Assembly (NCBI RefSeq): GCF_007954405.1
Contig: NZ_CP042344.1
Location: 1,054,001 to 1,118,000, forward strand
Direction: 5' to 3'
Source of the DNA: Comamonas flocculans
Lineage (GTDB): Bacteria > Pseudomonadota > Gammaproteobacteria > Burkholderiales > Burkholderiaceae_C
DNA: 64,000 nucleotides
Both the position numbers and the translations under genes were made by a program. Numbering within the stretch: the first letter of the stretch is position 1; each line of letters starts with the position of its first letter. Shown piece by piece: positions 11,330 through 47,616 of this stretch. The notes under the pieces were generated by a model that was not told the origin of the DNA, ran no database searches, and worked only from the letters and a program-made list of their open reading frames with translations.

Positions 11330-12880
11330 CTATTTGGGCACAAAGGGCCCGAGCAGCGGCACCGCCACGCGGGCAAACGCGGTGAGCCGCGCATCCGCCG
11401 CCCCCGCCGCCTCACCCGGGCGCATCGGCGTCACCATGCGCACCAGCGCGCCATCGGTGCGATTGCGCAGGAGGGCATCTTCCAGCAGATACCACTTCAT
11501 CAGGTACTCGTTGGCAATGCGCCGGCCGCGCTGCTCGAACCAGTAGTACACGAGCTGGTGCCGATTGTCCTTGGAGATCACGACACGCACCACTTCCAGC
11601 GGCGAGCCGTCGTTGAGTTCGATCACGTCGCCATGGATATCCGATATCACCCAGCCACCACCGGGAATGCAGACCTGTGGCGAATGCGGCGACACGCCCT
11701 TGCGCTGCGAGGCGTAATACGCGGTATAAAAATTCACCACATCGCCCGCCTCATCGCGGTAATCGGCAAGCACGTAGTCGCTGAAGCCCAGCGCCTGCTC
11801 CACCTCGATGGAAAGCGACGATTCGGTGGCGCGCCAGTTGCCCAGCTCCAGCGGAAAAGTGACCAGACTGTGACGCAGCGGCTTGACCTCGGTGCGCCCG
11901 CCCACGGTGAGCGCCGCCGCCATGCCCGCCGCCAGCAAGACCATCGCCGCCACGAGCGGGCGTGACCAACGTGCGCTGTAGATCCCCGTGGGCCGTGCCA
12001 CCGGCGGTAGAGGAATCTGCTGCTGCACCTCCAGCAAGCCGCGACGCAGCGTAAAGCGCTCGATCACCCAGATCTCGGCCATCAGGATGAGCTGGCAGAC
12101 GAGAAAGATCACCCAGCCTTCGAAATAGTGCAAGAAGCCGTCGGCCATGCCGCTGCCCCAGCGCGCCACCAGCACACCCACCATCGCGATGCGCGCGCTG
12201 TTGGTGAGCACCGTGATCGGCACCGCCGAGAGAAACACCAGCACCCGCCAGCGCATCTTCGCCGGATAGATGTAGGCCATCAAAAAGCTCAGGCTCAACA
12301 GCGGATACAGGTAGCGCAGGCCGCTGCAGGCTTCGACCACCTGCAGCTTGTAGCTGCCCAGGTCGATCACGTTGCCTTCAAGATAGACCGCGTAGCCCAT
12401 CAGCCGCAGCAAACCCACACCCAGGCTGGACGACATCAGCTGCAGGCGCCAGGAAATCTGCGAATCGATGAAATATGGCAGCGGGATCGCGAACAGCAAG
12501 AACGCGATCGGCATCCACGCCACGCGCAGCAGCGAGACACCGCCGTAGCACAACACCAGTCCGACGAGTGCTATCAAAAAACCGATCTGCACCGCCAGAA
12601 ACAGCGCGGTGACCTCGCCCAGCACCAGAAGCAACGCGCTCACCACCAGCAGCACCAGGCCCCAGCCCGAAGGCGCGCCCCGGCTCTTGCGCAAGACATC
12701 GCGCCGGTACCAAAGCAAAAACAGCGAAATCAACGGCAGGAAAAAGCCGTGGCTGTATTCCTCTTGTCGGTACCAGCGGCCCACCAACTCGGACAGCCCG
12801 CCCCAGAACGCCGCAATGGCCAGCAGGACACCGAGCAGCAGCAACTGCTCATTGCGCGGAAGACGGAAATGAAAAGGCAC
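11330..12880 (-). CDS. xrtD: Exosortase-EpsI fusion, VPLPA-CTERM type (XrtD)
   Basis: A 516-residue protein. Residues 1-285 form the multi-spanning exosortase with its catalytic set: Cys185 (EACSGLRYL), Arg230 (TNSARIAM) and His251 (FLHYFEGW). After a short linker and one more membrane segment (about 310-328), residues 330-510 form an EpsI domain (LGNWRATE, VNFYTAYYASQRKG, HSPQVCIPGGGW). This fused layout and the PLPGA-type sorting signals in the same locus fit the XrtD class. The enzyme would cleave and sort PEP-CTERM proteins after export across the inner membrane. Four candidate substrates are in the window: 6150-6914, 7075-7803, 44836-45489 and 45521-46108. Confidence 0.87.
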   Translation of the reverse strand: MPFHFRLPRNEQLLLLGVLLAIAAFWGGLSELVGRWYRQEEYSHGFFLPLISLFLLWYRRDVLRKSRGAPSGWGLVLLVVSALLLVLGEVTALFLAVQIGFLIALVGLVLCYGGVSLLRVAWMPIAFLLFAIPLPYFIDSQISWRLQLMSSSLGVGLLRLMGYAVYLEGNVIDLGSYKLQVVEACSGLRYLYPLLSLSFLMAYIYPAKMRWRVLVFLSAVPITVLTNSARIAMVGVLVARWGSGMADGFLHYFEGWVIFLVCQLILMAEIWVIERFTLRRGLLEVQQQIPLPPVARPTGIYSARWSRPLVAAMVLLAAGMAAALTVGGRTEVKPLRHSLVTFPLELGNWRATESSLSIEVEQALGFSDYVLADYRDEAGDVVNFYTAYYASQRKGVSPHSPQVCIPGGGWVISDIHGDVIELNDGSPLEVVRVVISKDNRHQLVYYWFEQRGRRIANEYLMKWYLLEDALLRNRTDGALVRMVTPMRPGEAAGAADARLTAFARVAVPLLGPFVPK

Positions 12881-19682: not shown

Positions 19683-20894
19683 TCACCTCTGCCCCGCGTA
19701 CCGCGCAAACAGCGCATGCAGCTTGGCGGCTTCGGCGTCCACGTCGTGACGCTTCAGCACGCGCTCGCGCGCTGCGTCACCCATGGCCTGCAACTCACCA
19801 GGGGGCGCGGCCAGGCAGGCCTGCATCGCATCGGCCAAGGCACCCACATCCCCCGGGGGGAACAACCAACCGGTGCGCCCCGGCTGCACCAGCTCGGGAA
19901 TGCCGGCCACATAGGTGCTGAGCACCGGGCGGCACAGCGCCATCGCCTCCATGATCACCACGGGCAGGCCCTCGGCAAAGCTGGGCAGCACCAGCGCGCG
20001 GGCGGCAAGCAGCTCCTCTCGCACTTGCGCAGACGCGATCCAGCCGGTGATGCGCACCTGCGCCTGCAGCGCCAGGCGCGCGACCTCTGCCTCGACCACG
20101 CCGCGCATCTCGCCATCACCCGCCAGCACCAGCTCACAGCCCACGCCGCGCGCCTTGAGCAAAGCCAGCGCCTGCACCAGCAGCAACTGACCCTTCTGCT
20201 CGCACAGGCGCCCCACACAAACCAGCCGGGCAGTCAAAGGGACCGGCTGCGTGGCCCCCTGATAAAACGCCTGATCGACGCCGCAATGCACCACCTGCAC
20301 CTTGGACCACTCAGCCACCGGCAACCAGCGGTAGAGCTGGCTGCGCCCGAACGAGCTGATTGCGACGACAAATCGTGCGCGCTGCATCTTCTCGCCCAAG
20401 TGCAGCGCCTGCGGCTTGTCGAATTCTTCAGGCCCATGCACGGTGAAGCTGTAACCCGGCCCGCCCAGTGCGTGCGCCAGCATCACCACCTCGGCCGAAT
20501 TGGTGCCGAAGTGCGCGTGCACGTGCCGCACGCCAGCATCCACCAGCCACAGGTAAAGCTGGCAAGCCTCCGCCAAGTACACGAGATGCAAGGGCAGAGG
20601 GCGGTCGGCGCGCCAGCCCATGCGCAGCGCCAGCATGAAGGCACGGCCCCAGTGGCGCGGACGTGTCATCGCCACACGCACGCTGGCCCTCGCCAGGCCC
20701 ATCAAGCCCCCACGCAAGAGGTAGCGTGTACGCGGCTGTTCGGCCGCGTCTTCCGGATCGGCCACGGCATCGCCCCAGCCGCGCAGCGCATAACGCTGCA
20801 CCTGCACGCCCTGGCGCTCCAGCGCCAGGATTTCGCGGCGGATGAAGCTGTGACTAACCTTGGGGTACTGGTTGACGAAGTAGGCGGCGCGCAC
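19683..20894 (-). CDS. GT4 glycosyltransferase (WcaL-like)
   Basis: 403 residues with GT-B fold features. The N-terminus YFVNQYPKVSHSFIRREI is typical of colanic-acid-type GT4 enzymes, HVHAHFGTN follows, and the C-terminal donor site reads PSFAEGLPVVIMEAMA (the EX7E motif). It starts with GTG at 20894, whose first base is the last base of the upstream TAG stop, so translation is probably coupled. It likely adds one sugar of the EPS repeat unit. Confidence 0.87.
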   Translation of the reverse strand: MRAAYFVNQYPKVSHSFIRREILALERQGVQVQRYALRGWGDAVADPEDAAEQPRTRYLLRGGLMGLARASVRVAMTRPRHWGRAFMLALRMGWRADRPLPLHLVYLAEACQLYLWLVDAGVRHVHAHFGTNSAEVVMLAHALGGPGYSFTVHGPEEFDKPQALHLGEKMQRARFVVAISSFGRSQLYRWLPVAEWSKVQVVHCGVDQAFYQGATQPVPLTARLVCVGRLCEQKGQLLLVQALALLKARGVGCELVLAGDGEMRGVVEAEVARLALQAQVRITGWIASAQVREELLAARALVLPSFAEGLPVVIMEAMALCRPVLSTYVAGIPELVQPGRTGWLFPPGDVGALADAMQACLAAPPGELQAMGDAARERVLKRHDVDAEAAKLHALFARYAGQR

Positions 20895-21769
20895 TATTTT
20901 TCAAACTTTCTCAAAACTCTCCTCAAAGTCTCTCCGGGATGAGTTATTCGCCAGATCTGAAAATTGTCCCAAATCGGATGTAACGAATCTATCTTAATCC
21001 AGCCATCAGGAACAATATTCACAATAGGTACAGGAACGCCGGGCCGCACCCACTCTTTTGGAGCAACAATCACCGCATTTTCATTAGCGTTCAAATAGCC
21101 ACCCCACCACGCAAAAGTAGAATTGACAAGCACGTTTCCTTCAGTACATCGGGTCATCAGCCAAAGTTGTTCCGGTGGGCTCAATTTTTCGACAAACATC
21201 AACGGAAGTTCACATTCAATTTTTTCAGCAAATTTCTTAGCCAAGTCAATCCTGTCGGCAAACACCAAGACTCGCCGAGCGTTCGCCGCCTTAGCGATGC
21301 CTTCAGAATAGTATTCCGGCGGGTACATTGGAAAAAATTCCCGCGTTTTCGCATAATCTTCGTCCAAGCGAAGTGATATACTCACAGAATCAGTCGCCTG
21401 ACCGACATCAAATTTAGCACCCGCTCCTTTAACGATAGCCTCACTAAATTTATACCATTCTCTGATAACGTTGCGACTTTGATAGTATTTTTCCGATTGA
21501 AAATATCCTTGAATATCCACGCCATCTTTGATCATCAACGCAGACATCGAAAACCCGGCCTGCACCCCCTGATCGTACAAGTCACCCAACTTTTCAGGCG
21601 CGGTGTTTATTCGAACCCCCTCATCATGCAAATCGAAAATTCGGTCTCCATCCCACTGAGGGCACCAAAAATCCGTCCCCAATCTCAACGCCATGCTTCG
21701 TAGATAGGCATATTGAAAAAGTTGGTTGCCGAGCCGCCCATAGTTTCCAAGTTTGCTGAACGTAATCAT
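20894..21769 (-). CDS. GT11-family glycosyltransferase (alpha-1,2-fucosyltransferase type)
   Basis: 291 residues. The GT11 N-terminal motif YGRLGNQLFQYA is clear and the C-terminal VNSTFAWWGGYLN is intact. The usual HxRxxDY motif appears as SISLRLDEDY, so the first basic residue is replaced. GT11 enzymes use GDP-fucose to make alpha-1,2 linkages, and manC in this locus could feed that pool. The base composition is clearly more AT-rich than the flanking GT4 gene. It lies just downstream of the GT25 gene, with 13 bases between. Confidence 0.82.
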   Translation of the reverse strand: MITFSKLGNYGRLGNQLFQYAYLRSMALRLGTDFWCPQWDGDRIFDLHDEGVRINTAPEKLGDLYDQGVQAGFSMSALMIKDGVDIQGYFQSEKYYQSRNVIREWYKFSEAIVKGAGAKFDVGQATDSVSISLRLDEDYAKTREFFPMYPPEYYSEGIAKAANARRVLVFADRIDLAKKFAEKIECELPLMFVEKLSPPEQLWLMTRCTEGNVLVNSTFAWWGGYLNANENAVIVAPKEWVRPGVPVPIVNIVPDGWIKIDSLHPIWDNFQIWRITHPGETLRRVLRKFEK

Positions 21770-21782
21770 TTGGCTTCAATCA

Positions 21783-22511
21783 TTATCGGAAAACTTGTCG
21801 TACCGTGTTTTTCATCTTCCTCAAAAAAGAGATCAGCGGCACAGGCAATATCGATCGACGGATAGACCTACCTTCATGTATATCCGTAGCCGAGCTTCTT
21901 TGATATGCAATTTCGGGTACCGCAAGTACTGTCGCACGCTCGGGGTGCATCTTTCTATACCACGAATAAGCACCATCAACATGCATCGGCCCTCCTTCGG
22001 GGTCTCCCGGTGGTCGGCGCAGTATTTTCTCAAAATAATCTGCGATGTCTTTAGCCACTTTTGGTTCGACGGCGATGCAGTGGGCCCCCATCAGCGCCAT
22101 ATCAGCCCCTACTGCAACGAACCCCTCTTTTCCCTGCGGTTGGGATTTGACCGTATTTAGCACACCACCATACATCATGGTGTTTTTTAATAGAATATGA
22201 TTCGTCAGATTATTCACAGCGCGCAAATCGAAATTACAATCATCCTCCAAAATCAACGCAAATTTGGCATCGGATGTCTGAATTTCACGCAATACCGCCA
22301 GATGGCTCATAAAACAACCGCGCGTGCCTATTGTGGGGAAGCCACCCGCATCATCCGGCCTGATGGCAGGGAAAAAAGTGATCCGCGGATCATGTGCTAA
22401 TACCCCTACCCTCCTTAATTGCCGCTCCATCTCCCGCCGGCGATCTACCCTGTGAGGGAGGTTGATGATCCAGATTTTTCCAAAATTGTCAAAGAAAGAT
22501 AATGCCATCAT
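21783..22511 (-). CDS. GT25-family glycosyltransferase (LPS-type)
   Basis: About 242 residues from the first of two ATGs at 22511; an in-frame ATG at 22550 would overlap the upstream gene by 17 bases. GT25 motifs are IWIINLPHRVDRRREM, GCFMSHLAVLREI and LILEDDC. Members transfer galactose or glucose in lipooligosaccharide and capsule synthesis. The C-terminal part has a basic SFLRKMKNTVRQVFR end, perhaps for membrane association. It is AT-rich like the next gene. Confidence 0.82.
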   Translation of the reverse strand: MMALSFFDNFGKIWIINLPHRVDRRREMERQLRRVGVLAHDPRITFFPAIRPDDAGGFPTIGTRGCFMSHLAVLREIQTSDAKFALILEDDCNFDLRAVNNLTNHILLKNTMMYGGVLNTVKSQPQGKEGFVAVGADMALMGAHCIAVEPKVAKDIADYFEKILRRPPGDPEGGPMHVDGAYSWYRKMHPERATVLAVPEIAYQRSSATDIHEGRSIRRSILPVPLISFLRKMKNTVRQVFR

Positions 22512-22533
22512 CTTCTTTCGAATGATCGGAAAC

Positions 22534-23559
22534 TTATTCCACCGACCCAACTACTTGGCACTCAATAAATGCGTCAAGACAACTCGCCCAGTGCTTGCGG
22601 TCGTGAATGGCGGTCTCGCGTGCGACCTGTGATTTTGCGAGCGATCGCATGATTTGCGCATCATCAATCATTCGCTGGGCATGTAACGTAAATTCCGCAA
22701 CGTCGCCAGGCTCGCAAAGCAACACAGCGGCTCGCCCCTCGACATACTCATGCGCGGCGTGGGTACGCGTCGTTGCCAATGGCAGGCCCAACAGCTTGGC
22801 ACCCACCAGCGTGATGTGGCCACAGCAAGTCTCGCGGCTCAGCAACGGCACCAGCACGCCGCAACTGCCATTCGCAATCGCCCAGGTCCGCGCCAGCGAG
22901 ATGTTGGTGAGCACGGTGACGTTTTCGGGTACTTCCATGCCTGTCAGGCTTTGCGAGCGCGCCACCACCACCATCTTCGTGGTTGGCCCCAGCCTGCGCG
23001 CCACCTGCATCAGCAAGGCAAAATCTCGCCCTTCGTCGCCAATGGCGCACAGATAGGGTCTGACATCACCCAAGCCCGTTTCGGCCTGCACCGGCGGCGG
23101 CTCTTGCGTCCAGATTACCGGTTGAAAGCGCTCGCGCTCGATCCCGAAGTGCTCGGCATACAGTCCCTGTTCGTAACGAGAGAAGACCACCATCTTGTCC
23201 ACACGTCGCAAAGCACCCCGAAGATACTGCAAGCGCCTGCCCGTCGGCAGCCGCGTGAAATTGAAGGCAAAACCCAGATGCGGCACATCGCCGCGCAGAC
23301 GCAGCAAATGGGCAACGGCGGCGGTCATCAAGGGCAGATGCGAGATGACAAAGCTGCGCGGCCCGGCACGCAGCGCCGCCTGCGCGGCAGCGCGGTAGCG
23401 CGACAGCCGCACGCCCCAGATGCGGCGCTCCAGCGCATTGGCCGGTTGCCCGCTCAAACCCACCCAGCGCAGCACATGGCGCGTTTGCAACTGTGTGAAT
23501 GCGTCATCAACCGGGCTCAAATCCGGCACGTTGATAGCGGTCAGCACGGAGTGGGCCAT
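22534..23559 (-). CDS. GT-B glycosyltransferase, GT4-like
   Basis: 341 residues. The N-terminal half has FVISHLPLMTAAV and a central PHLGFAFNFTR region. The C-terminal half resembles GT4 donor domains (VVVARSQSL, GVLVPLLSRETCCGHITLVGA, then LPLATTRTHAAHEYV). It lacks a textbook EX7E motif, so the family is less certain than for its neighbours. It ends four bases after the stop of the upstream GT2 gene begins to be cleared, within a tightly packed minus-strand run. The sugar is unknown. Confidence 0.65.
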   Translation of the reverse strand: MAHSVLTAINVPDLSPVDDAFTQLQTRHVLRWVGLSGQPANALERRIWGVRLSRYRAAAQAALRAGPRSFVISHLPLMTAAVAHLLRLRGDVPHLGFAFNFTRLPTGRRLQYLRGALRRVDKMVVFSRYEQGLYAEHFGIERERFQPVIWTQEPPPVQAETGLGDVRPYLCAIGDEGRDFALLMQVARRLGPTTKMVVVARSQSLTGMEVPENVTVLTNISLARTWAIANGSCGVLVPLLSRETCCGHITLVGAKLLGLPLATTRTHAAHEYVEGRAAVLLCEPGDVAEFTLHAQRMIDDAQIMRSLAKSQVARETAIHDRKHWASCLDAFIECQVVGSVE

Positions 23560-23562
23560 GGC

Positions 23563-24540
23563 TCACTTGTACTCAATGATGGTTTGGCGCTGGTGCAACA
23601 CGCGCTTGAAAACAAACTTCAGTACGCCCCAGCCTTCGGCGAACTTGCCCAATACCAGAAACAACGCGCGCTCCCAATCGTTGTGCCGCCAATACAAGCG
23701 CAACACCTGCGCCGGATACACCAAGAGCAGCAACAACGCGCCTGCACCCAGCCATAACGTCGCCGTCGCCACGATGAGCGGCAATGCGACACCCCAAAAC
23801 AGCGCGCTGTACGTCTCACGCACCCAGTGCCGCTCAGGCGATGCACCATGCAGCCAGGCACCCTGCGCAAACGCGTAACCCCCGCGCGTAGCGCGTCGCC
23901 ACCATTGGCTTAGACGAGTGATGTCGGCGTCGTGCAAGGTCATCTCTTGATCCAGGCGACGCACCTTCCAGCCCGCCGCACGCAGGCGCACGCACAACTC
24001 GGGCTCTTCGCCCGCAATCAGATCATCGCGGTAGCCGCCCACAGCCTGCAGCGCATCCGTGCGCATCATGGCATCGCCGCCACAGGCCTTTGCGTCGCCC
24101 ACCGGAGTGTCCCACTCCACATCGCACAACCGGTTATAGATCGAGCGTGCGGGATGGCGCTCACGACGTCTGCCGCACACCACGGCGTACCGTTCATGTC
24201 CTGACTCTGTCAAAAACTCGCTGGCCGCCAACAACCAGCTGCCAACCACTTCGCAATCACCATCAACAAACTGCACCAATGCCATTTCAGGATCTGTCTG
24301 CCGCAGCGCCTGGAACCCCGCATTGCGCGCGCGCGCTGCCGTAAAGGGCACGCTCATGTCCAAGGGCACCACCACCACACCCAGGCTGCGCGCCAGCGCC
24401 ACGGAATCATCGGTCGAGCCCGAATCGACATACACCACCGTGTTCGCCTTGTACGCCACCGACTGCAAACACACACGCAAGCGTTCGCCTTCGTTGCGGC
24501 CAATCACTACGATTCCAATAGCTTGTTGCGCTTTATTCAT
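23563..24540 (-). CDS. GT2 glycosyltransferase
   Basis: 325 residues. The GT-A domain has IGIVVIGRNEGERL, YVDSGSTDDS, the metal-binding motif VDGDCEV and a YRDDLIAGEEPELCVRLR acceptor/base motif. Two hydrophobic segments near 245-275 probably place the C-terminus at the membrane. It overlaps the upstream acetyltransferase gene by eight bases, so the two are co-translated. It likely adds one sugar of the repeat unit. Confidence 0.87.
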   Translation of the reverse strand: MNKAQQAIGIVVIGRNEGERLRVCLQSVAYKANTVVYVDSGSTDDSVALARSLGVVVVPLDMSVPFTAARARNAGFQALRQTDPEMALVQFVDGDCEVVGSWLLAASEFLTESGHERYAVVCGRRRERHPARSIYNRLCDVEWDTPVGDAKACGGDAMMRTDALQAVGGYRDDLIAGEEPELCVRLRAAGWKVRRLDQEMTLHDADITRLSQWWRRATRGGYAFAQGAWLHGASPERHWVRETYSALFWGVALPLIVATATLWLGAGALLLLLVYPAQVLRLYWRHNDWERALFLVLGKFAEGWGVLKFVFKRVLHQRQTIIEYK

Positions 24541-25081
24541 GGGCGCTAGAACCTGAAATGACTGCTGGAATTCCCACCGCTACCGCCCCCTGCGGTACAT
24601 CGACCAACACCACCGCATTGGCACCGACCACCGCATGCGCCCCCACAGTGATGCCCCCCAGCAACTTGGCGCCTGCGCCCACATCCACGTGCCCTTTCAG
24701 CACCGGCGCCCCGCCATCGCCGCGTGTGCCCAGCGTTACCTGCTGAAAAATCAGGCAATTGGGGCCGATGCGCGCGTCAGGGTGAATCACCACGCCATTG
24801 GGATGCGGCAACAACAGGCCGCCACCGATCTGCGTGTTCAGCGGAATATCGGCCCCGCTCACCGCGCTCCAGAACCGATGACGCAGCACCGCCCATTTTT
24901 TGCACAACATCGCCCATGCACCAGGGGATGCGGCCAGCCGCTGATAGTCGCGCAGGCTGGCGAGCAGACACTTGCCTGGATTCCACTCGCCGGGGCGCCG
25001 TGCCTCGCGGGACCAATCCGGCACTTGAGCGCTGGCATCCGCCAGCACCGCACAGGCGTCTGATTCCATGTTGTTCCCCAT
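24533..25081 (-). CDS. Serine-acetyltransferase-like O-acetyltransferase (left-handed beta helix)
   Basis: 182 residues (a second ATG at 25069 is also possible). The N-terminal helical part is followed by hexapeptide repeats: DIPLNTQIGGGLLLPHPNGV, IHPDARIGPNCLIFQQVTLG, and a C-terminal VGAGAKLLGGITVGAHAVVGA. The HPNG segment carries the catalytic-type histidine of the CysE fold. In polysaccharide loci such proteins acetylate sugar hydroxyls using acetyl-CoA, so EPS O-acetylation is more likely than cysteine synthesis here. The fold is also present at the end of the next gene product. Confidence 0.8.
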   Translation of the reverse strand: MGNNMESDACAVLADASAQVPDWSREARRPGEWNPGKCLLASLRDYQRLAASPGAWAMLCKKWAVLRHRFWSAVSGADIPLNTQIGGGLLLPHPNGVVIHPDARIGPNCLIFQQVTLGTRGDGGAPVLKGHVDVGAGAKLLGGITVGAHAVVGANAVVLVDVPQGAVAVGIPAVISGSSAHE

Positions 25082-25159
25082 GCGGAAACTAAACCATTGC
25101 CATACAAAGGCTTATAGCGCCTTGCCGATCCATCCACCGACGCCCCAACCCTGACCTGT

Positions 25160-27307
25160 TCACTCCAAACCTCTTGAACTACCTGCATTTTTGTCAACCT
25201 TGCTCGACTCACTATACGCCGCCAGATTTTTGCGCCGATTAACACCAATTATGCGCCCAGGATTACCCATGACTATCGAATTAGGCGGGATATCAACAAA
25301 TACCACTGAATTCGCCCCAATGATGGTATTTTCACCTATCTCTATATTTCCAACAATTACCGCTCCAGCACCAATATCTACAAAATCGCCTATGATTGGC
25401 TTAGCATTCAAATCATCAATACTACGAATGCCAAATGTTGTATTTTGACGAATAATAACATCATTGCCAATTTTTCGAGCACCTAAAATCATTCCACCAA
25501 AGTGCTCAAGTTTAACACGACGCCCAAGCTGGACCGTGTAATCAAGCTTAATTCCACAGACAATTTGCGCTGTTTTATTCAGTATCCTATAAATGATCGT
25601 CAGTGGTGCCCGGAAAATTTTTTTTCTCACACCCATACGCCAATTACCGAACCGATGAACAAAAAGCATCAGAAAGCCTTGGCTCATAATTTTCTTTTCA
25701 TTTGTCCGGTAATCCTCGCGCACCAAATTCCAGAAAGAAATATTATCCGGATTCATGTTGCGCGAGCCATCGGGCAGAGGCGGAGCGTTTTCCCCCGCCG
25801 CCATACGGAAATGATAATAGCCAGCACCTTCAATCACGCTAACAAGCCGACGCAACGGCCAAGACTCCCATCCGGCAGGGATGTCTCCTAAAGCGCGTTC
25901 CAGAGCAATGCCAACCTGCAAATGAATCAAAGAATCACCATCCAAATCGGCAAAGAGCATGTCTAATGATATCGGATGGCCGACCAGCCGCTCTAAGAAC
26001 TGACTAAACGTATCGTTGGTTTCGTCGCGACCGCTTTCCTCCAAAGTCAGCCGCGCCTCCAGAACATGCGCGAGCTCTACTCGCTGAATTTTCCCAGTCG
26101 CGGTCCGAGGCAAGCTTTGCACTTCATGGACACTGATCGCACCACGTGCATTTGCACCTTGTGCTCCCGCTTGCATCGCTACCGCATCCACCAACGTATC
26201 CTGAACAAGCTTAACCGGGGACGTCACAACCACGCCAATGCCATCTCCACGCATCGGATCGGGCCGCCTTAGTATGGCAAATTCGCCCACATCCAAATTG
26301 CGCGCTAGCAGTTCCGTGCGGACAGCCGCTTCCATCAAGTCCGGCGAAAGCTTGATTCCGCCGCAATTGATCACATCGTCGGCTCGGCCCAAATAATATA
26401 AGCGACCATCATCAATTCGCCCCAAATCCGAAGTTTGCAACCAAACTTCGTGACCCAATGCCCTCCAATACTCACCTTCGGCCACGCCAAGGGCAACGTG
26501 CGGCCCACTGATCTCGATGCGCCCGTCGTCTCCGATACGCACACGTACAGCGCCTGACACTTGGCCGACCGAACCCAATGTCTCAGCGGGTTCCTCATGA
26601 ATCCGTTGTAACGTCGTGCGCGAAGCTTCGGTCAGCCCGTAATGTTGCACGATACGCGCATTAGGCAATGCAGAACGCAACGCGGCCTTTTCGGTCGCAG
26701 ACATATATTGACTGCCAATTTCGACCCAACGCACACGCTTAAGTTCGCCACCAAACCGATCAAGCCCAGCCAAAAACACACGCCACAAACTTGGAACGGC
26801 GGAAATCGCGTTGATTTCACCGGCAATCAGCATGTGCCGTATTTCCGCCAAATCAAAACCGCCTGATGGCACATAACATGCCCCGCTGGCATTGAGTACC
26901 ACGCGACAGCGCCCGTAACCAAAACTGTGATACACCGGAACACCCACGTACTCCCGTATTTCATTGTCAATTTCCATCGTTTCGGTTACGCGACAAACTG
27001 CGTCATGCAGGTTGCCATGACTCAAAAGTACGGCCTTGGGTTTGCCCTGTGTGCCAGATGTAAATGAAATCTGCGCCGCATCATCGCCACTTCGTGAAGT
27101 GAATTTTTCGGCAATCCATCCTCCTTCCGTGTCAGTACGCTGAATGATGTTGGTATGAGTGAAAGCCAAACGCTCTTCGTCACCCGATCCGGTCAGCGGA
27201 ACGGATACCAACCCCTGAGCTAAATTAGACAGTAGCCGTCTGACATAGTCAGTGCTGTTAGATGCAATGACGCCAACAGTTTCGAGAGTATCAAAGGGGT
27301 TTTTCAC
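25160..27307 (-). CDS. AMP ligase - acyl carrier domain - CysE-like acyltransferase fusion
   Basis: 715 residues with three parts in order. (1) An adenylation domain, about 1-415: FTSGTQGKPKAV (82-93), HYGLTE (222-227), TSDLGRIDDGRLYYLGRADD, and TATGKIQR with catalytic-type Lys406. (2) A short carrier-protein-like segment, about 430-495, with FADLDGDSLIHLQ; Ser459 is the predicted phosphopantetheine site. (3) A serine-acetyltransferase-like beta helix, about 520-690, with His602 in KLEHFGG and IGDFVDIGAGAVIVGNIEIG repeats. The order suggests that an acid is activated, loaded on the carrier and passed to a sugar (inference). Just before the adenylation core the N-terminus is short. AT-rich; overlaps the upstream GT2 gene by four bases. 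Confidence 0.8.
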   Translation of the reverse strand: MKNPFDTLETVGVIASNSTDYVRRLLSNLAQGLVSVPLTGSGDEERLAFTHTNIIQRTDTEGGWIAEKFTSRSGDDAAQISFTSGTQGKPKAVLLSHGNLHDAVCRVTETMEIDNEIREYVGVPVYHSFGYGRCRVVLNASGACYVPSGGFDLAEIRHMLIAGEINAISAVPSLWRVFLAGLDRFGGELKRVRWVEIGSQYMSATEKAALRSALPNARIVQHYGLTEASRTTLQRIHEEPAETLGSVGQVSGAVRVRIGDDGRIEISGPHVALGVAEGEYWRALGHEVWLQTSDLGRIDDGRLYYLGRADDVINCGGIKLSPDLMEAAVRTELLARNLDVGEFAILRRPDPMRGDGIGVVVTSPVKLVQDTLVDAVAMQAGAQGANARGAISVHEVQSLPRTATGKIQRVELAHVLEARLTLEESGRDETNDTFSQFLERLVGHPISLDMLFADLDGDSLIHLQVGIALERALGDIPAGWESWPLRRLVSVIEGAGYYHFRMAAGENAPPLPDGSRNMNPDNISFWNLVREDYRTNEKKIMSQGFLMLFVHRFGNWRMGVRKKIFRAPLTIIYRILNKTAQIVCGIKLDYTVQLGRRVKLEHFGGMILGARKIGNDVIIRQNTTFGIRSIDDLNAKPIIGDFVDIGAGAVIVGNIEIGENTIIGANSVVFVDIPPNSIVMGNPGRIIGVNRRKNLAAYSESSKVDKNAGSSRGLE

Positions 27308-28272
27308 TGTGAGGTGCCTTTCGCCTTTGGCAAGGCGAAACCATGTGTCAGCATGTCATGCCAAAGATATGGTGGATCCATGATCGGCTTAAATCGCAGG
27401 CCACGATGAATTCTATAGAACACATCGCCGATTAGATAGAGCACATTGGCAAATATAGCACCAACACGCCCGTGGTAATCATTAAAAAATTTAAATCTGG
27501 ATTGATACCAATAATCCGGAATGCGCTTAACGGCGTCTTGCGCACGTACTCCTGTCGCTTGACCCTGCAGGTGGACGACGCGGCTTTCGGGGATATGCCA
27601 TATTTCATATCCTGCCTTTTTCATCCGAGCCATTAGATCAACCTCTTCGAAATACAAGAAATATTGGATATCCATCAAGCCGATTTCCTGAAGCGCCGTG
27701 CGCGGCATCATAAAACTCGCACCAGTTACCCAATCAACCTTTTGTGCATTCTCAAGTTCCGAAACCATCACCTCTGTAAATGGAAACATACGTCCCAAGA
27801 AAGACAATCGCACACCACAAAAAAATTCTCTCCACGGAGTCGGAAAACGAAAACCGGACGCACGCACAGTTCCATCTGGATTTTCGAGACGGCTCCCGAC
27901 AACACCAATTTTCGGGTAAATTCGCAAGGCATCTTCGAGCGCATCAACCGCACCGGCTCTAATATATGTATCCGGATTTAAAAAATAGACATATTCTATT
28001 TCTTTATCACACAAAACATAATTTATTAAAACAAAATTATTGCCGTACGCAAATCCATAATTCCCTCCAATAGGAAAACAGGTTACAAAATCGAAATTTT
28101 TCTCTTTTATGAAGCAATTAATGATACTCAAGGAATCATCGCCAGAATCTGCATCTCCCACATAGATTTTAAAGCGATTTTCAGCATCCCGCTCACGCAC
28201 CAATGAAACGAGGCACTCCGTCACAAGTTTTGGAGTTTTGTGATTGATGATGACGATTGCAATTTTCCCCAT
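27304..28272 (-). CDS. GT2 rhamnosyltransferase-like glycosyltransferase (WbbL type)
   Basis: 322 residues. The N-terminus IAIVIINHKTPKLVTECLVS is typical of rhamnosyltransferase-like GT2 enzymes. YFLNPDTYI carries the metal-binding Asp, followed by GVVGSRLENPDGTV, VTGASFMMPR and YFLYFEEVDLMAR. The donor is often dTDP-rhamnose in this subgroup, but no rml genes are in the window. It is the first gene after the long AT-rich gap, and it overlaps the ligase fusion gene by four bases (ATGA). Confidence 0.88.
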   Translation of the reverse strand: MGKIAIVIINHKTPKLVTECLVSLVRERDAENRFKIYVGDADSGDDSLSIINCFIKEKNFDFVTCFPIGGNYGFAYGNNFVLINYVLCDKEIEYVYFLNPDTYIRAGAVDALEDALRIYPKIGVVGSRLENPDGTVRASGFRFPTPWREFFCGVRLSFLGRMFPFTEVMVSELENAQKVDWVTGASFMMPRTALQEIGLMDIQYFLYFEEVDLMARMKKAGYEIWHIPESRVVHLQGQATGVRAQDAVKRIPDYWYQSRFKFFNDYHGRVGAIFANVLYLIGDVFYRIHRGLRFKPIMDPPYLWHDMLTHGFALPKAKGTSQ

Positions 28273-28835
28273 TTGTCAATAATCCATAATCTTCATATTC
28301 AAAATATCTTTTCGACACCATTGTAATTAACTTCTTTTTTTTGGTTCATCAATTTCTACTCGCCAAATTATTTTCATCAATCTCGGCCTAGCAGGCTATT
28401 GCATTATAACTGGAATACTCGGAAACAACACAACACTTTTGAGAGCGCCTCATCTTTTGCCAAGCTTGAAAAAATCGCTTGCATTCCTTTTTTGGCGGCT
28501 GATATTTTGGACAAGTCAATAGACAACCTAGTATTTCAACGACCTGTTAAGGATAAAGAACTCTAAGCCTTCAGGTCTTAATGTCGGATGCTGGCGATGG
28601 CTCTGCAAAATAATGCTCAGTGTGCTATAGCGCCCCATAACGCTAGAAATCCGGGAGAGGCGGACACAGAGCCATACCCTGACAAGGCCGTATCTTCAGA
28701 ACTTCGTTCCAACATGTCAAATTTTCTGAGATTCAGATTGAAATCACAAATACGCAACTACAGCGGGTGACTATACAAAATATTACCCACTATATATTCC
28801 ATAGTTGCTTACATTTGTCCAACAGACGTTTGGAT
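28273..28835. other. AT-rich intergenic stretch without a recognisable gene
   Basis: 563 bases between the ABC transporter stop and the GT2 start. The base composition is much richer in A+T than the ribosomal or EPS core genes. I find no family signature in any frame; a 60-codon open stretch on the plus strand at 28588-28770 has no recognisable feature. It probably holds the promoter of the 28272-16590 minus-strand run, and could be the scar of an exchanged sugar cassette. Confidence 0.6.
28403..28433 (-). promoter_or_regulatory. Possible promoter of the glycosyltransferase run
   Basis: A perfect minus-strand TATAAT (28408-28403), about 130 bases before the GT2 start. The -35 is poor: TTGTGT at 28433-28428 with a 19-base spacer is the best match. 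Confidence 0.35.
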
Positions 28836-30593
28836 TTAATTTCGCCTGATATCTTTCGATACAGTCTCTCGAATCAATCCGCCTTCCAAGTGGAAGATTC
28901 GATGACACCGCGCCAGCGTGGAAACCCTGTGGGCAATCATCAGGATGATGAGGCTGGGGTTGAGCCGATAAATCGCATCCATCACCTTGGTCTCGGTTTC
29001 GCCATCCAGTGCGCTTGTGGCCTCATCCAGCACCAGTACATCGGCCTTCTTGTACAAGGCGCGGGCAATGCCAATGCGCTGGCGCTGCCCGCCCGAGAGC
29101 TGGATGCCGCGCTCACCTACGCGCGTGCGCGTGCGCTCGGGCAATTGCCGGATGAACTCGGAGAGCTGGGCCGCCTCCAGCGTTTGCGCCAGGTGTGCAT
29201 GATCGATCTCGCCGGGGGGCACGCCCAGTGCCACGTTTTCGGCAATCGACTTGTCCACCAGGAAAATGGCCTGCGGCACGTGGGCGATGCGCTTGTGCCA
29301 CCAGGGCAAATTCGCCTCGGTGATGGGCTCGCCGTTGACGACCACCACGCCGCTCGTGGGTCGCAGAAGGCCCATGCAAATGTCGAGCAGCGTGCTTTTG
29401 CCGCCGCCTGTCACGCCGACGAAACCCACGCGCTCTCCGGCATTGATGCGCAGATTCACCCCATCGAGCACGGTTTTCTGGTCTGGTCCGTAGGCGAATC
29501 GAACCTCTCGCAGTTCGATGGCGGAAACCCCCGCCTCGGATACGCCAGTCCTTGCGTGCACGGTGGGGCCTGGCCGGGGCATCGGCAAATCCAGCAGCGC
29601 CAGCGTCTCTTGCACGGTGGCGAGGCTGCCGCGGTAGCTCGCGTACCCGTTGTAAATGACTTGCACGTGCGGCAGCAACCGCTGGCCGCCCAGCGCCAGC
29701 GCGCCCAGCACCGGCAGGGCATCCACCACACCGCCAGGGCCGCGCACCAGCCAGTTGGCCAGCGCCACCACCAGGATGATGGCGATGCTCTCGATCACGT
29801 ACTTGGGCGCGCCGCCCAGCGTGAGATTGGTCGCCTGGGCCGCACGCAACTCGCGATCCACGTAGGCGAACTGGTGCACATACACCTCCTGGTTGTGCTC
29901 CAGCGTGATGTCTCGGATCGCGCCCAGGCCTTCTTGCAGGTACTGAAACCGCAGGATGCCATTGCGCGCCACCGTCTCGCTGTTGTGCTGCAGGCGCCGC
30001 TTGGCCCACAGACTGACACCGACGTACATCCCGCCAATCAGGCAGCCCGCCACCAGCGCCACCACCGCATCCACCCACAGCAGGGCCGCGAGAATCGAGC
30101 TCGCCATCACTGCGGCCACCATCATCAGCATGAGCGGCGCCAACGCCCCCGCGGTCAGGTGGCCGACCTTCTCCATCGCTGAAAGCGTCTGGCTACTGCT
30201 GCGACCCAAGTGGTAGGCATAGGGCTGATGCAGCACCCGGCCGAACACCTGCACACCCAAGTCGGTACCAATGGCAAAGATCACCCGATTGCTGGCCCAG
30301 GTGAGGAGCAAGCGCAGCGCCCCGGCGATGAACGCGACGCAGCCGAACAGCAGGGACGCGGCCAACAGGCGCGTGCCCCCGATGAGACCCGCCACCGCAT
30401 CGAGCAGATGAGCAAACCACGGGGCCTTGTCCACGAACTCGGGACTGGCGAGCAGGCCGAGAAACGGCACGATGGCGCCGAGCGTGAACACCTCGCCAAA
30501 GGCACCGGCCACCATCAGCAGCGCCACCGTCGCCAATTGCAGGCGGCGCTTGTGGCCAAGGTGATGCCAGACGGTGGAAATCAGTTGAATCAT
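28836..30593 (-). CDS. ABC transporter, fused membrane and ATPase domains (PglK/MsbA-like)
   Basis: 585 residues from the ATG at 30593 (MIQLISTVWHHLG); the longer reading would run through the upstream gene. About six membrane segments fill residues 1-310. The ATPase domain has Walker A GVTGGGKST, signature LSGGQRQRIGIARAL, Walker B VLVLDEAT and the H-loop IAHRVSTL. In polysaccharide loci such half-transporters of the PglK type flip lipid-linked oligosaccharides across the inner membrane. No Wzx-type flippase is seen in the window, so this is the best candidate for that step. It lies between a GT4 gene and the AT-rich gap. Confidence 0.87.
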   Translation of the reverse strand: MIQLISTVWHHLGHKRRLQLATVALLMVAGAFGEVFTLGAIVPFLGLLASPEFVDKAPWFAHLLDAVAGLIGGTRLLAASLLFGCVAFIAGALRLLLTWASNRVIFAIGTDLGVQVFGRVLHQPYAYHLGRSSSQTLSAMEKVGHLTAGALAPLMLMMVAAVMASSILAALLWVDAVVALVAGCLIGGMYVGVSLWAKRRLQHNSETVARNGILRFQYLQEGLGAIRDITLEHNQEVYVHQFAYVDRELRAAQATNLTLGGAPKYVIESIAIILVVALANWLVRGPGGVVDALPVLGALALGGQRLLPHVQVIYNGYASYRGSLATVQETLALLDLPMPRPGPTVHARTGVSEAGVSAIELREVRFAYGPDQKTVLDGVNLRINAGERVGFVGVTGGGKSTLLDICMGLLRPTSGVVVVNGEPITEANLPWWHKRIAHVPQAIFLVDKSIAENVALGVPPGEIDHAHLAQTLEAAQLSEFIRQLPERTRTRVGERGIQLSGGQRQRIGIARALYKKADVLVLDEATSALDGETETKVMDAIYRLNPSLIILMIAHRVSTLARCHRIFHLEGGLIRETVSKDIRRN

Positions 30594-30658
30594 CAAACAG
30601 CAAGCAAAACGAAAAAAGGGCAGCGGCGTCAGCGCGATCGGCAGCGCATCGCAGGCGC

Positions 30659-31888
30659 TTACGCCCCCCCCGCTCGGACATCGGCCACTTCTTGGTAAAA
30701 CGCCAGATAGGCATCGGCCAAGGCTTGCCCCGAAAACTTTTTGCGCGCAACCTTCTTGGCATTCTCCGACAACCGCAGGGCAAGCTCCGGGGCGTCCAGC
30801 ACGGCCTGCACGCATGCGCCCAGCCCATCGGCATCCTCGCTCTCGAACAAAAGCCCGGTGCGCCCGTCCTCGATGATTTCGGGAATGCCGCCAACGCGGC
30901 TTGCCACCGTCGGCACTCCCTGCGCGAACGCCTCGGCTACGGCGTACGAGAATATTTCCGTGCGCGAGGACACCACGCATACCGCCGCCGCTTTTCTGAT
31001 GCGCGTCACCTCAGGTCCGTTCTTCCTGCCGAGGAACTCGATGGGGCAGGCGATCGCATACCTTTCCTCGCACCACGCGACAAAATCCTTCCGACTTTGC
31101 GGTGTGCCATCGCCGATCTGCATTCGGTCATCGTCCGGACCGACAAAAATCGCACGCACCGCCTCCCGCCTGGATGCGAGCTTGAACATGGCCTCGATGA
31201 AAATATCCGCGCCCTTGACCTTGTCGAACCGACCGACGAAGACCACGGTCTTGTTCTCTGGGTCAAATTTCCACTGCTCATCGCTCGCATAAACCGGTAA
31301 GGGATTGGGCAAGACGGTTTTCTTGTCAATCTTCTTTTCATAAAATTTCTCGACCGCATCCAGCACGAACCGGGACGGCGCCGAGACCGCCGCCGCAGAA
31401 AAAATGGCTTCCCCTTCCCTCTGAACGCGTGCTCGGTAGCGGGCATCATCAAGAACGCCCTGCGCGCGCCCCACAAGAAACCAAGGGCCATGCAGCCTCA
31501 CGACGACAGGGGCGCCGGCGTGCGTGGCAACCGCGCGAGACTGCCCGAATGCCTCTTCCATTTCGATGACGCATCGGCTGTTTTGCATCGGCCCATTCTT
31601 GACGAAACGGCCGAACTTCCATGCCATCATGGATTCATAGGCATCGACGCCAAACATCCTGAGGGTCAGACGTCGCAACAACGAGCGCTGCGACAGATAG
31701 TAGCCATATGTCCCATCGTGTTGCAGACCGGGCGGACTACCACTCTTGGCAACCAAGCCGGCCTTGATGGCCCCCAGCCCTTGCAAAAGGGCCATCAGAT
31801 TCCTTGCATAGGTGCACACACCATTCGGCGTTTCTTCCAGTGGAACACTTGGCGCAAATATGAGCAGTTCAATTTTTCCGGATGCCAT
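30659..31888 (-). CDS. GT4 glycosyltransferase
   Basis: About 409 residues from MASGKIELL at 31888; another in-frame ATG lies at 31900. The N-terminal half has FAPSVPLEETPNGVCTYARN with the glycine-rich acceptor loop. The C-terminal half has VVFVGRFDKVKGADIFIEAM and SSRTEIFSYAVAEAFAQGVP, a variant of the EX7E donor motif, then GIPEIIEDGRTGLLF. It overlaps the end of the wzy gene by 20 bases, so coupled translation is likely. The donor sugar is unknown. Confidence 0.88.
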   Translation of the reverse strand: MASGKIELLIFAPSVPLEETPNGVCTYARNLMALLQGLGAIKAGLVAKSGSPPGLQHDGTYGYYLSQRSLLRRLTLRMFGVDAYESMMAWKFGRFVKNGPMQNSRCVIEMEEAFGQSRAVATHAGAPVVVRLHGPWFLVGRAQGVLDDARYRARVQREGEAIFSAAAVSAPSRFVLDAVEKFYEKKIDKKTVLPNPLPVYASDEQWKFDPENKTVVFVGRFDKVKGADIFIEAMFKLASRREAVRAIFVGPDDDRMQIGDGTPQSRKDFVAWCEERYAIACPIEFLGRKNGPEVTRIRKAAAVCVVSSRTEIFSYAVAEAFAQGVPTVASRVGGIPEIIEDGRTGLLFESEDADGLGACVQAVLDAPELALRLSENAKKVARKKFSGQALADAYLAFYQEVADVRAGGA

Positions 31889-33338
31889 GACCCATCCCAA
31901 CCAGGAACATCAACAACGGGAAAAACACACTCCCTTTGCCAAAAGAACTGACGGTAAATATCACCATTCCCAGACCCACCATAATCACCATGTAGACCCG
32001 CGCGGCGTCAAGAACCTCACCATCACCACCACGCTTGGCTCGCCGGTAGACCGCAAGCGGCCAAGCAAATATCAGGCCGGCGAACAAGACCATGGCGACC
32101 AAGCCATACTGCAAACCTACCTGAAGATAGGTATTGACAATATCTATGATGCCTTCGCCTTGGCGCAGTACCTGCAAGCGAGGTGCACTCATGAAATGGG
32201 GATTTCCCGTCAATGGATGTTGCATGATTTCCTGCATCCCAAGCTCCAACAAGCGTTGCCGATAATCCACGTTGCCAGAATCTTTCAGCATCAGGCCATC
32301 AGCCACGGAATCGAAAAGGCCGGTAGCAAATAACAACACGGAAACGAATATTACCCCAATGAAAACATAGTAAATCCCGCGTGACCTATAACTGAGTATC
32401 GCATACCACACAACCATCCCTGCACCTATAATCCAAGGCGCGCGAGAAAACGTAAAAACCACCGATAAAAGCAACAATAAAAACAATAACTTTTGCACTG
32501 CCGATTTTTGGACATCTTTGATAAGATACGCAAACACCACCATCGCGCAGCTACCAATCGCCGCCAAATGGATGGCCCCCACGGTTGCGGAAGTTCTCAG
32601 AAAACCCCCACGGTATTTATAAGTCGTAATCATCAAATCGGGCAAATCAAGCGCACCGCGTAATTCATCATAAACATTCCAGTGCTTTAACATGGTAAAC
32701 ACTCCCATCCCAGACAGAATAATTGCGATGAAAGTAAAACCAAAATAAATATACCTTGCGTCTCTCAATTCGAACGAAGTTTTTCTAGCAATGAGATAAG
32801 GCACCAAAATGAGATTGAAATAGACAAACGTCTCGCGAAATCCATCCGACACGGTCGTGTCGCGAAACGACAGCAGCGCTATCAACACAAACAGCAAAAT
32901 CACCGCCAGCGAAACGCGCTCCCGGCCGACAGGCGTACGGCGCCGCGTTCCAGACAAGAGGTAGCTCAGGCCCAAGACCATGGGCCAAGACAATTCGACG
33001 ATCTTGTTCAACCCGAAGAAGCCCTGCATGACCCGGCCCAACGACGGAACGGACAGCAGCAGCACGACAAAGAGGCCGCCCTGCGCATGCACGGGCACTC
33101 GGTTCTTGACGAAGGGAACGACGAGCAAGGCCAGCAGAATGAAAACGTAATAGTTTGAAGCCAAGAAGGCTGCAGACGTCACCAGCGCCCATGCCACGAA
33201 ATAGCGCTTGCTGACCGAACTGGGGCCCGTCGACGGCACGCCGTCCAACTGCAGCGTTCTCCCGGCTTTCGTCCACAAGAGATAACAAAGACATCCCACG
33301 GCCATGACAACGATGTACGCTTTGAGGTAATTGGGCAT
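31869..33338 (-). CDS. O-antigen polymerase/ligase-type membrane protein (Wzy)
   Basis: 489 residues with about ten to twelve hydrophobic segments throughout. The Wzy/WaaL C-terminal signature is visible: DYRQRLLELGMQEIMQHPLTGNP, then IVNTYLQVGLQYGLVAM. Family members join lipid-linked repeat units in the periplasm. It is the first gene of a minus-strand run followed by a GT4 and the ABC transporter, which fits a polymerase next to its flippase. Sequence in the middle part is moderately AT-rich. Confidence 0.85.
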   Translation of the reverse strand: MPNYLKAYIVVMAVGCLCYLLWTKAGRTLQLDGVPSTGPSSVSKRYFVAWALVTSAAFLASNYYVFILLALLVVPFVKNRVPVHAQGGLFVVLLLSVPSLGRVMQGFFGLNKIVELSWPMVLGLSYLLSGTRRRTPVGRERVSLAVILLFVLIALLSFRDTTVSDGFRETFVYFNLILVPYLIARKTSFELRDARYIYFGFTFIAIILSGMGVFTMLKHWNVYDELRGALDLPDLMITTYKYRGGFLRTSATVGAIHLAAIGSCAMVVFAYLIKDVQKSAVQKLLFLLLLLSVVFTFSRAPWIIGAGMVVWYAILSYRSRGIYYVFIGVIFVSVLLFATGLFDSVADGLMLKDSGNVDYRQRLLELGMQEIMQHPLTGNPHFMSAPRLQVLRQGEGIIDIVNTYLQVGLQYGLVAMVLFAGLIFAWPLAVYRRAKRGGDGEVLDAARVYMVIMVGLGMVIFTVSSFGKGSVFFPLLMFLVGMGHGIRKN

Positions 33339-46197: not shown

Positions 46198-47616
46198 TCA
46201 ATACGCCTTCTTGCCCGTGAACGCACTGAAGGTACGCAGCAGGATGGACAGGTCCAGCCACAGCGACCAGTTGTTGATGTACTCGATGTCAGACTGGACG
46301 CGCAGTACCATTTCATTGATGTCCCGTGTCTCGCCACGGTAGCCCCGCACCTGCGCCAAGCCCGTGATCCCTGGCTTGATGTTGTGGCGTGCGAAGTACT
46401 GCTGGATGCGGCTTGAATACTCCTGGTCGTGCTGCACCGCATGAGGGCGTGGCCCCACAAGCGACATCTCGCCGCGCAGCACGTTGAAGATCTGCGGCAA
46501 TTCATCCAGGCTGGTGCGCCGAATGAATGCGCCCACGCGGGTGACGCGGGGGTCGCCCCGCGTGGCTTGGCGCACTACGCCTTGTTCCACCGGATGCACA
46601 TACATGCTGCGGAATTTCCAGATGCGAAATGTGGCGCCATTCCAGCCCATGCGCGACTGGCGGAAGAACACGGGGCCGGGGCTGTCAAGCCTTACCGCCA
46701 AGGCAACCAGACCGAGGACAGGCACAGCCGCAAGACAGATCAGCGAGCCCAGAATCACGTCTTCCAGCGACTTCACCAGACGTCTCGTGCCCGTGAGGGG
46801 CGTTTCGGACAAGGTGAGCACGGGCACGCCAGCGATCTCGCGCACACTGTGGTTGATGAGCCGCAAAGAGAAGATGTCCGGCACCCAATGAATGGCGACA
46901 TGCTCATCGAGCAGCTTGAAATAGAGCTCTTCAACCACCGCTGATGCATGCAGCGGGATGGCGAAATACACCGTCCGGACGCCGTGGCGCTCTATCAGTT
47001 CAAGCAGATGATCTAGCGTCCCGAGCACGGGGGGCAACCCGTCCACCGGCGAAGTGCTGGTGTTGTCGGCATCCTCCTGCAGGGCGACACACCCGACAAC
47101 GCGCTCGGACAGCCACGGGTTGTGCGAAATCCGCTGATGCAGATAGGAGGCCAGCTGGCTGGTGCCGACGATGATCACGTTGTCGGTTTCGACCGCGTGG
47201 CGCACGAAATACTTCTGCAGCGAACGCACGATGAGGTGCAACAGCAGTTGCACGAACAAGCCAAGCACGTACAGCTGAGCGATCAGGCGACGCGAGAAGA
47301 CATCGGTCTGCTTGGTCAGAAAGCCGAGCAGCAGCAGTACGGCAAACGCCAGGCTCCAGGCTTGAATCAGCCGAACGGCTTTGCCGGTGAAGTTGGAGTT
47401 GCTGCGGTAGATGGCAAACTGATCGTAGAGCAAACCCATGATCACGAGCAGCGTCATCACCAGCACCGTGTAGTGGGCGGTCAATGCACCGATTTGGCGC
47501 TGGATCAACAGGTAGGCAATCGTCAGCACGGCGGCGCCGTCAAGCGCCGCCTGCAGTGCGTTGCTGAAATTGCCGCGTCGCTGCAGTACGGAGCGGTTCC
47601 CCCCCAGATTACTCAT
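46198..47616 (-). CDS. epsB: Undecaprenyl-phosphate glucose phosphotransferase (WcaJ/EpsB type)
   Basis: 472 residues. Four to five membrane helices are at the N-terminus (about 30-140), followed by a Rossmann-like CoA-binding-type domain (VIIVGTSQLA near 148) and the C-terminal bacterial sugar transferase domain. In the last, FRIWKFRSM, the TSLDELPQIFNVLRGEMSLV motif and GPRPHA are intact, and YINNWSLWLDLSILLRT ends the fold. It adds glucose-1-phosphate or a related sugar to undecaprenyl phosphate and so starts the repeat unit. Its ATG overlaps the TGA of the HDOD gene. Confidence 0.91.
   Translation of the reverse strand: MSNLGGNRSVLQRRGNFSNALQAALDGAAVLTIAYLLIQRQIGALTAHYTVLVMTLLVIMGLLYDQFAIYRSNSNFTGKAVRLIQAWSLAFAVLLLLGFLTKQTDVFSRRLIAQLYVLGLFVQLLLHLIVRSLQKYFVRHAVETDNVIIVGTSQLASYLHQRISHNPWLSERVVGCVALQEDADNTSTSPVDGLPPVLGTLDHLLELIERHGVRTVYFAIPLHASAVVEELYFKLLDEHVAIHWVPDIFSLRLINHSVREIAGVPVLTLSETPLTGTRRLVKSLEDVILGSLICLAAVPVLGLVALAVRLDSPGPVFFRQSRMGWNGATFRIWKFRSMYVHPVEQGVVRQATRGDPRVTRVGAFIRRTSLDELPQIFNVLRGEMSLVGPRPHAVQHDQEYSSRIQQYFARHNIKPGITGLAQVRGYRGETRDINEMVLRVQSDIEYINNWSLWLDLSILLRTFSAFTGKKAY

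Follow-up and report, generated by a model that had tools for sequence, protein, structure and literature searches.

We analysed a stretch of 64,000 nucleotides of the Comamonas flocculans genome (one 3.33 Mb contig), hereafter the window, which carries an EPS locus. One gene of this locus encodes an adenylating ligase, a carrier and an acyltransferase in a single chain of 715 residues. The gene and the neighbours that define its setting were the following:

25160..27307, minus strand: fused gene, mini-ANL ligase, carrier and CysE/EpsC-type left-handed beta-helix (LbH) acyltransferase, 715 aa
27304..28272, minus strand: GT2 glycosyltransferase, upstream, overlapping the start of the fused gene
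24533..25081, minus strand: separate second CysE/EpsC-like protein, 182 aa
23563..24540, minus strand: GT2 glycosyltransferase, weakly EpsD-like, downstream
11330..12880, minus strand: exosortase of the XrtD type, in the same EPS locus
28836..30980, minus strand: ABC transporter (MsbA/PglK-like), candidate flippase
31869..33338, minus strand: Wzy_C polymerase/ligase
46198..47616, minus strand: WcaJ-type initiating glycosyl-phosphate transferase

The EPS locus also encodes GDP-mannose pyrophosphorylase/PMI, WecG-type and several other glycosyltransferases, and Wzz/Wzc-like and export proteins. A previous sequence-only reading had placed a single 715-residue chain at 25160-27307 inside an EPS locus. 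The open reading frame was borne out and lies on the minus strand, which that reading had not stated, and the setting was confirmed by the exosortase, glycosyltransferase, Wzy_C, export and initiating-transferase genes around it. The G+C content dropped to 0.40-0.56 at window positions 20500-23000, 25000-29000 and 31000-33000, compared with about 0.60-0.71 in the rest of the EPS locus; the local values of 0.40-0.55 contrast with 0.62-0.71 over much of the flanking DNA. The second of these dips (25000-29000) contains the fused gene together with the neighbouring GT2 gene, and the low G+C fits a recent horizontal acquisition of the fused-gene region. Elsewhere in the locus, 36326-37834 encodes an EptA/CptA-like phosphoethanolamine-transferase-type sulfatase-fold protein, possibly responsible for a second decoration of the polymer or of lipid A. 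In the export part of the locus, a 700-aa ORF (37913-40015) matched nothing in Pfam or NCBIfam at the thresholds applied, and one of 384 aa (43010-44164) is a weak outer-membrane-barrel candidate.

The GTG start codon of the fused gene overlaps the stop of the upstream glycosyltransferase gene (GTGA), which couples the two genes, and the open frame around it spans 731 aa with no internal stops. A homology search with the fused protein yielded 962 homologues at E 0.001, 120 of which were listed, and 31 of these were aligned with the query. The Asp-Ser-Leu/Ile motif was found in all 120 listed homologues, the EHxG pattern in 118, HYGLTEASR in 116 and the strict P-loop pattern in 94; the four motifs occurred together in 92, of which 90 measured 640-800 aa. 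The motif positions previously read from the sequence (82-93, 222-227, Lys406, Ser459 and His602) were found as claimed, with TSGTQGKPK at 83-91, HYGLTE at 222-227 and the carrier serine in the pair Asp458-Ser459. Residues S84, G85, T86, G88, K91, 222-227, K406, D458, S459 and H602 were invariant in the query and its 31 relatives. When 80 genome loci (80 kept of 284) were compared, the same ligase-carrier-LbH order appeared in 11 of them, belonging to Roseovarius, an uncultured Rhodobacteraceae, Octadecabacter, three Parvularcula, two Endobugula, two Cellvibrionaceae and a Sphingomonas MAG. The sequence-only reading had itself raised the concern that a frameshift in the assembly might falsely join two genes. 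This origin was ruled out by the open frame and by the recurrence of the join in most of the 120 listed homologues and in 11 of the 80 loci; no point in favour of an assembly artefact or a chance joining was found, and we consider the probability of either to be negligible. Among the relatives, P0016 (1041 aa) was rejected as a true glycosyltransferase-ligase-LbH fusion, since its GT2 match ends at residue 248 and its ligase match begins at 333. The stretch between them resembles another frame, and P0016 is a probable frameshift joining neighbouring genes.

The chain runs from a shortened ANL adenylation domain through a carrier to the CysE/EpsC-type LbH domain, with these landmarks:

26063..27307, minus strand: shortened ANL adenylation domain, residues 1-415
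27029..27064, minus strand: ANL phosphate-binding motif, residues 82-93
26909..26911, minus strand: Arg133, invariant, in the predicted acid pocket
26618..26620, minus strand: Arg230, invariant, in the predicted acid pocket
26090..26092, minus strand: Lys406, A10 catalytic Lys
25796..26038, minus strand: carrier domain, residues 424-504
25931..25933, minus strand: Ser459, predicted phosphopantetheine site
25232..25786, minus strand: CysE/EpsC-type LbH domain with its N-terminal linker, residues 508-692
25547..25549, minus strand: Lys587, aligned with Asp143 of E. coli CysE and conserved as Lys in 42 of 42 fused domains
25502..25504, minus strand: His602, equivalent to E. coli CysE His158
25400..25402, minus strand: Lys636, aligned with His193 of E. 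coli CysE and conserved as Lys in 42 of 42 fused domains

The AMP-binding profile (PF00501) matched the fused protein with an E-value of 4.7e-29 (101.8 bits against a cut-off of 29.9), and the P-loop, the A5 motif, the A7 Asp and the A10 Lys were invariant in the query and its 31 relatives. The ANL domain is N-terminally short, with the Pfam match starting at profile position 158 of 384, as is also the case in the aligned relatives. Membership in the XrtA-associated acyl-CoA ligase family (TIGR03098) was ruled out by a score of 104 bits, far under the cut-off of 592.35. In the profile search against solved structures, the three best PDB matches were entries of linear gramicidin synthase, an NRPS for which several domains add up in the score, and oxalyl-CoA ligases and malonyl-CoA synthetase were found within the ten best solved relatives.

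The pocket was mapped with a sequence alignment and the NRPS code positions, and it was compared in 71 rows from 69 of the 80 loci. L040 and L056 (partial genes) were left out, as were L024, L034, L046, L047, L059, L066, L070, L073 and L080, which fall outside the main cluster and several of which run off the contig. Residues F129, G130, R133, E196, H222 and R230 were identical in the 11 LbH, 2 thioesterase and 58 AT3-type rows, with the exception of one gapped AT3-type row; K406 was replaced by Ala in one of the 71 rows, and D458 and S459 never varied. By the NRPS code positions, the residues conserved in this way would include the substrate pocket. Arg230 aligned with His319 of the oxalyl-CoA synthetase 5ie0, as counted by hand in the profile alignment; this histidine contacts oxalate in AAE3.

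These comparisons bear on whether the loaded acid could be an amino acid. In the DltA-DltC-DltB and AlmE-AlmF-AlmG systems, a ligase loads a carrier, from which a transferase passes the group on to a glycan of the envelope. DltA and NRPS domains were among the structural and sequence matches of the fused protein, and carrier-borne aminoacyl transfer to envelope glycans is established, so an aminoacyl ester or amide might likewise be made on the glycan here. However, Phe129 stands where the NRPS code expects the Asp235 that holds the alpha-amino group, and the predicted pocket contains two invariant arginines. The Dlt and Alm systems also differ from the fused protein in consisting of separate proteins with amino-acid substrates and unrelated transferases. 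We consider an aminoacyl product improbable.

The Pfam carrier profile (PF00550) gave no match in the carrier segment of the query. At E <= 0.1 it matched 27 of the 32 aligned sequences and missed five, one of them the query, and two other fused proteins, L014 and L016, exceeded the Pfam carrier cut-off. Modelled alone, the segment formed a helical bundle that was most similar to solved carriers (Foldseek E-values of 0.17 or worse), with Ser459 at a helix start. Thus, the carrier fold around Ser459, on which the sequence-only reading depended, was predicted for the isolated segment, and the Asp458-Ser459 attachment site was invariant across the relatives compared. Because the genome contained one match to the phosphopantetheinyl transferase family and only one other carrier was found in it, loading of Ser459 would rely on a transferase that is probably the housekeeping AcpS.

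The C-terminal part gave a Hexapep match (E 7e-9), and EpsC/CysE-type profiles covered residues 549-688 with scores under the cut-offs of those families (EpsC, NF041874: 98.6 bits against 150; CysE, TIGR01172: 83.5 bits against 210.65). Its closest solved relatives were serine acetyltransferases, with E-values of 6.3e-19 for the whole chain and 8e-20 for the C-terminal part alone. The catalytic His602 was invariant in the 42 fused LbH domains, and its surroundings were strongly conserved. The lysine pair at CysE positions 143 and 193 distinguished the fused domains from 11 stand-alone LbH proteins (5 counterparts of the fused domain and 6 of the second type), which carried Lys at neither position: position 143 was Asp/Glu in 10 and position 193 was Ala in 9. 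The two closest stand-alone proteins had Gln (L055) or Phe (L048) together with Arg in place of the lysine pair. With regard to the CysE-like fold proposed earlier, the fold relation and the catalytic His were therefore upheld, whereas an identity as serine acetyltransferase was ruled out by the score far below the cut-off, by the presence of another CysE elsewhere in the genome that passes the TIGR01172 cut-off (239.7 bits) and by Lys587 and Lys636. The fused C-terminal domain resembles the EpsC, CysE and WcaB acetyltransferases in its LbH fold and catalytic His, and EpsC and WcaB also in the type of locus, but it scores under the curated cut-offs, is joined to a loading pair and presents two lysines near the catalytic His.

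In E. coli CysE, Asp143 is the partner of the catalytic His, and His193 also has a role. Since the Asp143 equivalent is Lys in all 42 fused domains, the transfer step may differ or be lost. If it were lost, the LbH domain would be a catalytically dead trimer scaffold, and the acyl group would go from the carrier to another enzyme, for instance the adjacent 182-aa LbH protein, which is of a more typical kind. We regard such a scaffold as quite unlikely, given the full conservation of His602 with its surroundings in the fused domains and the absence of a second LbH match from the 11 other fused-type loci within the locus DNA examined.

From the computed architecture, predicted carrier fold, conservation, module exchange and locus context, we infer a series of catalytic steps together with their acid, acceptor, compartment and trimeric state. 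The fused protein is likely an NRPS-like acyl-loading and transfer enzyme of the EPS pathway that would carry out carrier-delivered O-acylation of a sugar precursor. The mini-ANL domain would convert a small carboxylic acid and ATP into an adenylate, and the activated acid would then be moved to a phosphopantetheine arm that the in-chain carrier bears at Ser459. Transfer would follow in the cytoplasm, ahead of export: the LbH domain, probably a trimer, would take the acyl group from the carrier and, by means of His602, place it on a hydroxyl of an EPS sugar precursor. In the relatives, the same loading pair would supply an AT3-like membrane domain or a thioesterase with the acyl group. The self-contained activation-carrier-transfer machine that the sequence-only reading had proposed is well supported by conservation, the predicted carrier fold, the EPS-locus context and the joining of the pair to AT3-like membrane domains as well; its action on EPS and the unusual nature of the acyl group are what we infer from this.

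Each of the proposed steps is plausible because precedents exist, in that Pls/PosA proteins join an adenylation-carrier pair to left-handed beta-helices and LpxA/LpxD use carrier-borne acyl groups. LpxA and LpxD are LbH enzymes that move acyl groups from a carrier to sugar nucleotides; unlike the fused protein, they draw on the free acyl-ACP of fatty-acid synthesis and are not known to have an in-chain ligase or carrier. The nearest precedent is Pls/PosA (TIGR02353), described as one NRPS-like chain in which an adenylation domain and a carrier are followed by a terminal part that has been modelled as left-handed beta-helices or called acetyltransferase-related (PMC10522769, PMC8117764). Pls/PosA proteins possess six membrane helices and three tandem beta-helices, and diamino acids are what they load and polymerise, whereas the fused protein has one soluble EpsC/CysE-type LbH domain and its gene lies in an EPS locus. 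By simple hydropathy, no TM-like stretch was found in the last 280 residues of the fused protein, and the Pls/PosA profile TIGR02353 had no match in its genome at E <= 1e-30. In a related genome, the Pls/PosA terminal domain occurred twice with equal scores, at sites separated by about 12 kb (G023:C1:448349-450475 and G023:C1:460166-462292).

Among the relatives, the adenylation-carrier pair occurs with three endings: LbH, a largely AT3-like membrane domain and a thioesterase. In most of the other loci, the loading pair was followed by a C-terminal domain that is polytopic by simple hydropathy. PF01757 (Acyl_transf_3) matched 42 of 55 membrane domains at E <= 0.1, with a best E-value of 3e-29; these were 55 of 58 domains, L036, L042 and L057 being left out because the cut began too late. 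Among nine whole AT3-type proteins, PF01757 was found in four and was above its cut-off in one. An R-x9..12-H pattern was present near the start of 53 of the 58 membrane domains, in a plain count without a chance control. The label AT3-like is based on the 42 PF01757 matches, since hhalign gave kinship of the two membrane-domain subtypes no support (no profile similarity, probability 0.8%). AT3-type relatives contained the loading pair with one to four carriers in the chain; L046:9992-13369 has tandem carriers between the ligase and the membrane domain, with four Pfam carrier matches, and L080:9986-13198 about three, as read from its sequence alone. The two thioesterase-ended members, assigned by Pfam, came from Methylophaga lonarensis and a Gemmatimonadota MAG. 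The ligase-carrier pair with this ending was observed at L052:3534-5954 and at L078:9977-12217, the latter amid glycosyltransferases. Overall, the loading pair was spread across Pseudomonadota, Cyanobacteriota, Chlorobiota, Planctomycetota, Gemmatimonadota and Myxococcota.

A maximum-likelihood tree was built from 102 adenylation domains, comprising 43 LbH (the window, 11 loci and 31 database relatives), 57 AT3-type and 2 thioesterase rows. The tree requires five changes of ending, and LbH rows occupy three places in it: a main clade of 41 rows including the window, P0077 and L016. The separation of the main clade has weak support (79/74), while P0077 (99/77) and L016 (100/96) both stand among AT3-type rows. 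Even if only branches with good support are counted, LbH must have changed at least twice and AT3 at least three times, and the joining of the ligase-carrier pair to LbH probably arose more than once.

This repeated joining also bears on an alternative, in which the LbH domain would be an EPS O-acetyltransferase of the ordinary acetyl-CoA-dependent kind, and the loading pair would be joined to it only for co-expression and serve another step. Stand-alone LbH homologues do occur in genomes without a reported loading pair (G002 and G025; 8 of 369 class genomes, with three candidates scored per genome), which favours this alternative. On the other hand, the lysine pair is confined to the fused side of the comparison (42 of 42 against 0 of 11), the joining probably happened more than once, and the same loading pair is also joined to other transferase-type domains. 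An acetyl-CoA-dependent enzyme thus seems unlikely, although less so than an aminoacyl product or a dead scaffold, and we retain carrier-delivered O-acylation.

The predicted acid pocket stays constant although the endings change, and the loading pairs therefore probably use one and the same acid whatever the ending. The extra positive charges at both sites, two arginines in the pocket and two lysines in the fused LbH domains, would fit, and suggest, an anionic or very polar acyl group; the acid is probably malonate-, succinate- or glycerate-like. Among 17 neighbour clusters recurring in at least five loci, no acid-making gene was apparent when judged by eye from the sequence starts.

The gene order offered a view of how the fusion originated. 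The order in the window is GT2, fused gene, second LbH, GT2. In Methylophaga (L050 and L057) it is GT2, stand-alone LbH, second LbH, GT2, with an AT3-type loading protein encoded nearby as another gene, and in Nitrincola (L055) it is GT2, stand-alone LbH, GT2; the comparison took in L016-L018 only in part. The N-terminus of the stand-alone LbH of L055 resembles the linker of the fused protein. Because a separate LbH holds the syntenic place in Methylophaga and Nitrincola, the loading pair probably became joined to the N-terminus of an existing LbH gene of the EPS locus. Both a loading pair and a separate LbH were present in 8 of 9 non-fused genomes searched, six of which (L029, L048, L050, L055, L057 and L078) had been chosen for having a separate LbH. 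Among the three not so chosen (L043, L036 and L022), a separate LbH match was found in two and none in one (G077). An additional loading pair or LbH of this kind was found in none of the 11 fused-type genomes at E <= 1e-20, the two matches of G067 being one gene.

The AT3 architectures described comprise AT3 alone, AT3-SGNH, AT3-racemase and the animal NRF-AT3 (PMC9558356, PMC7448272, PMC12423673). One review among these prefers acyl-CoA over ACP as the AT3 donor, and the main texts of the three contain no occurrence of phosphopantetheine or AMP. The sister AT3-type proteins differ from the architectures described there in their built-in loading pair and one to four carriers. A search of the open-licence PMC literature found no description of a ligase-carrier-LbH or ligase-carrier-AT3 order. 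We give about equal credence to and against the proposal that these proteins form a previously unnamed acylation system of exported polysaccharides, in which one acid-loading pair and one acid would be combined with interchangeable endings: a cytoplasmic LbH, an AT3-like membrane transferase that receives the acyl group from its own carrier, or a thioesterase. If so, some AT3 proteins would draw acyl groups from a carrier and not from CoA, EPS could bear acids absent from the acyl-CoA pool, and the ending of a compact machine would decide the membrane side of the transfer. The carrier-fused AT3 relatives would then allow the supposed use of acyl-CoA by AT3 proteins to be tested directly. Because the pocket is invariant, finding the acid of one member should answer the question for all, and the modules look interchangeable for the production of new polysaccharide derivatives.

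Further distribution analyses showed that the fused gene is rare and patchy. It was found only in its own genome among 60 relatives (own included), and likewise only there among 369 genomes of the class (three candidates scored per genome) and 398 of the phylum (two scored per genome). The phylum-level scan revealed one further loading pair, in a 1141-aa open frame of G652.
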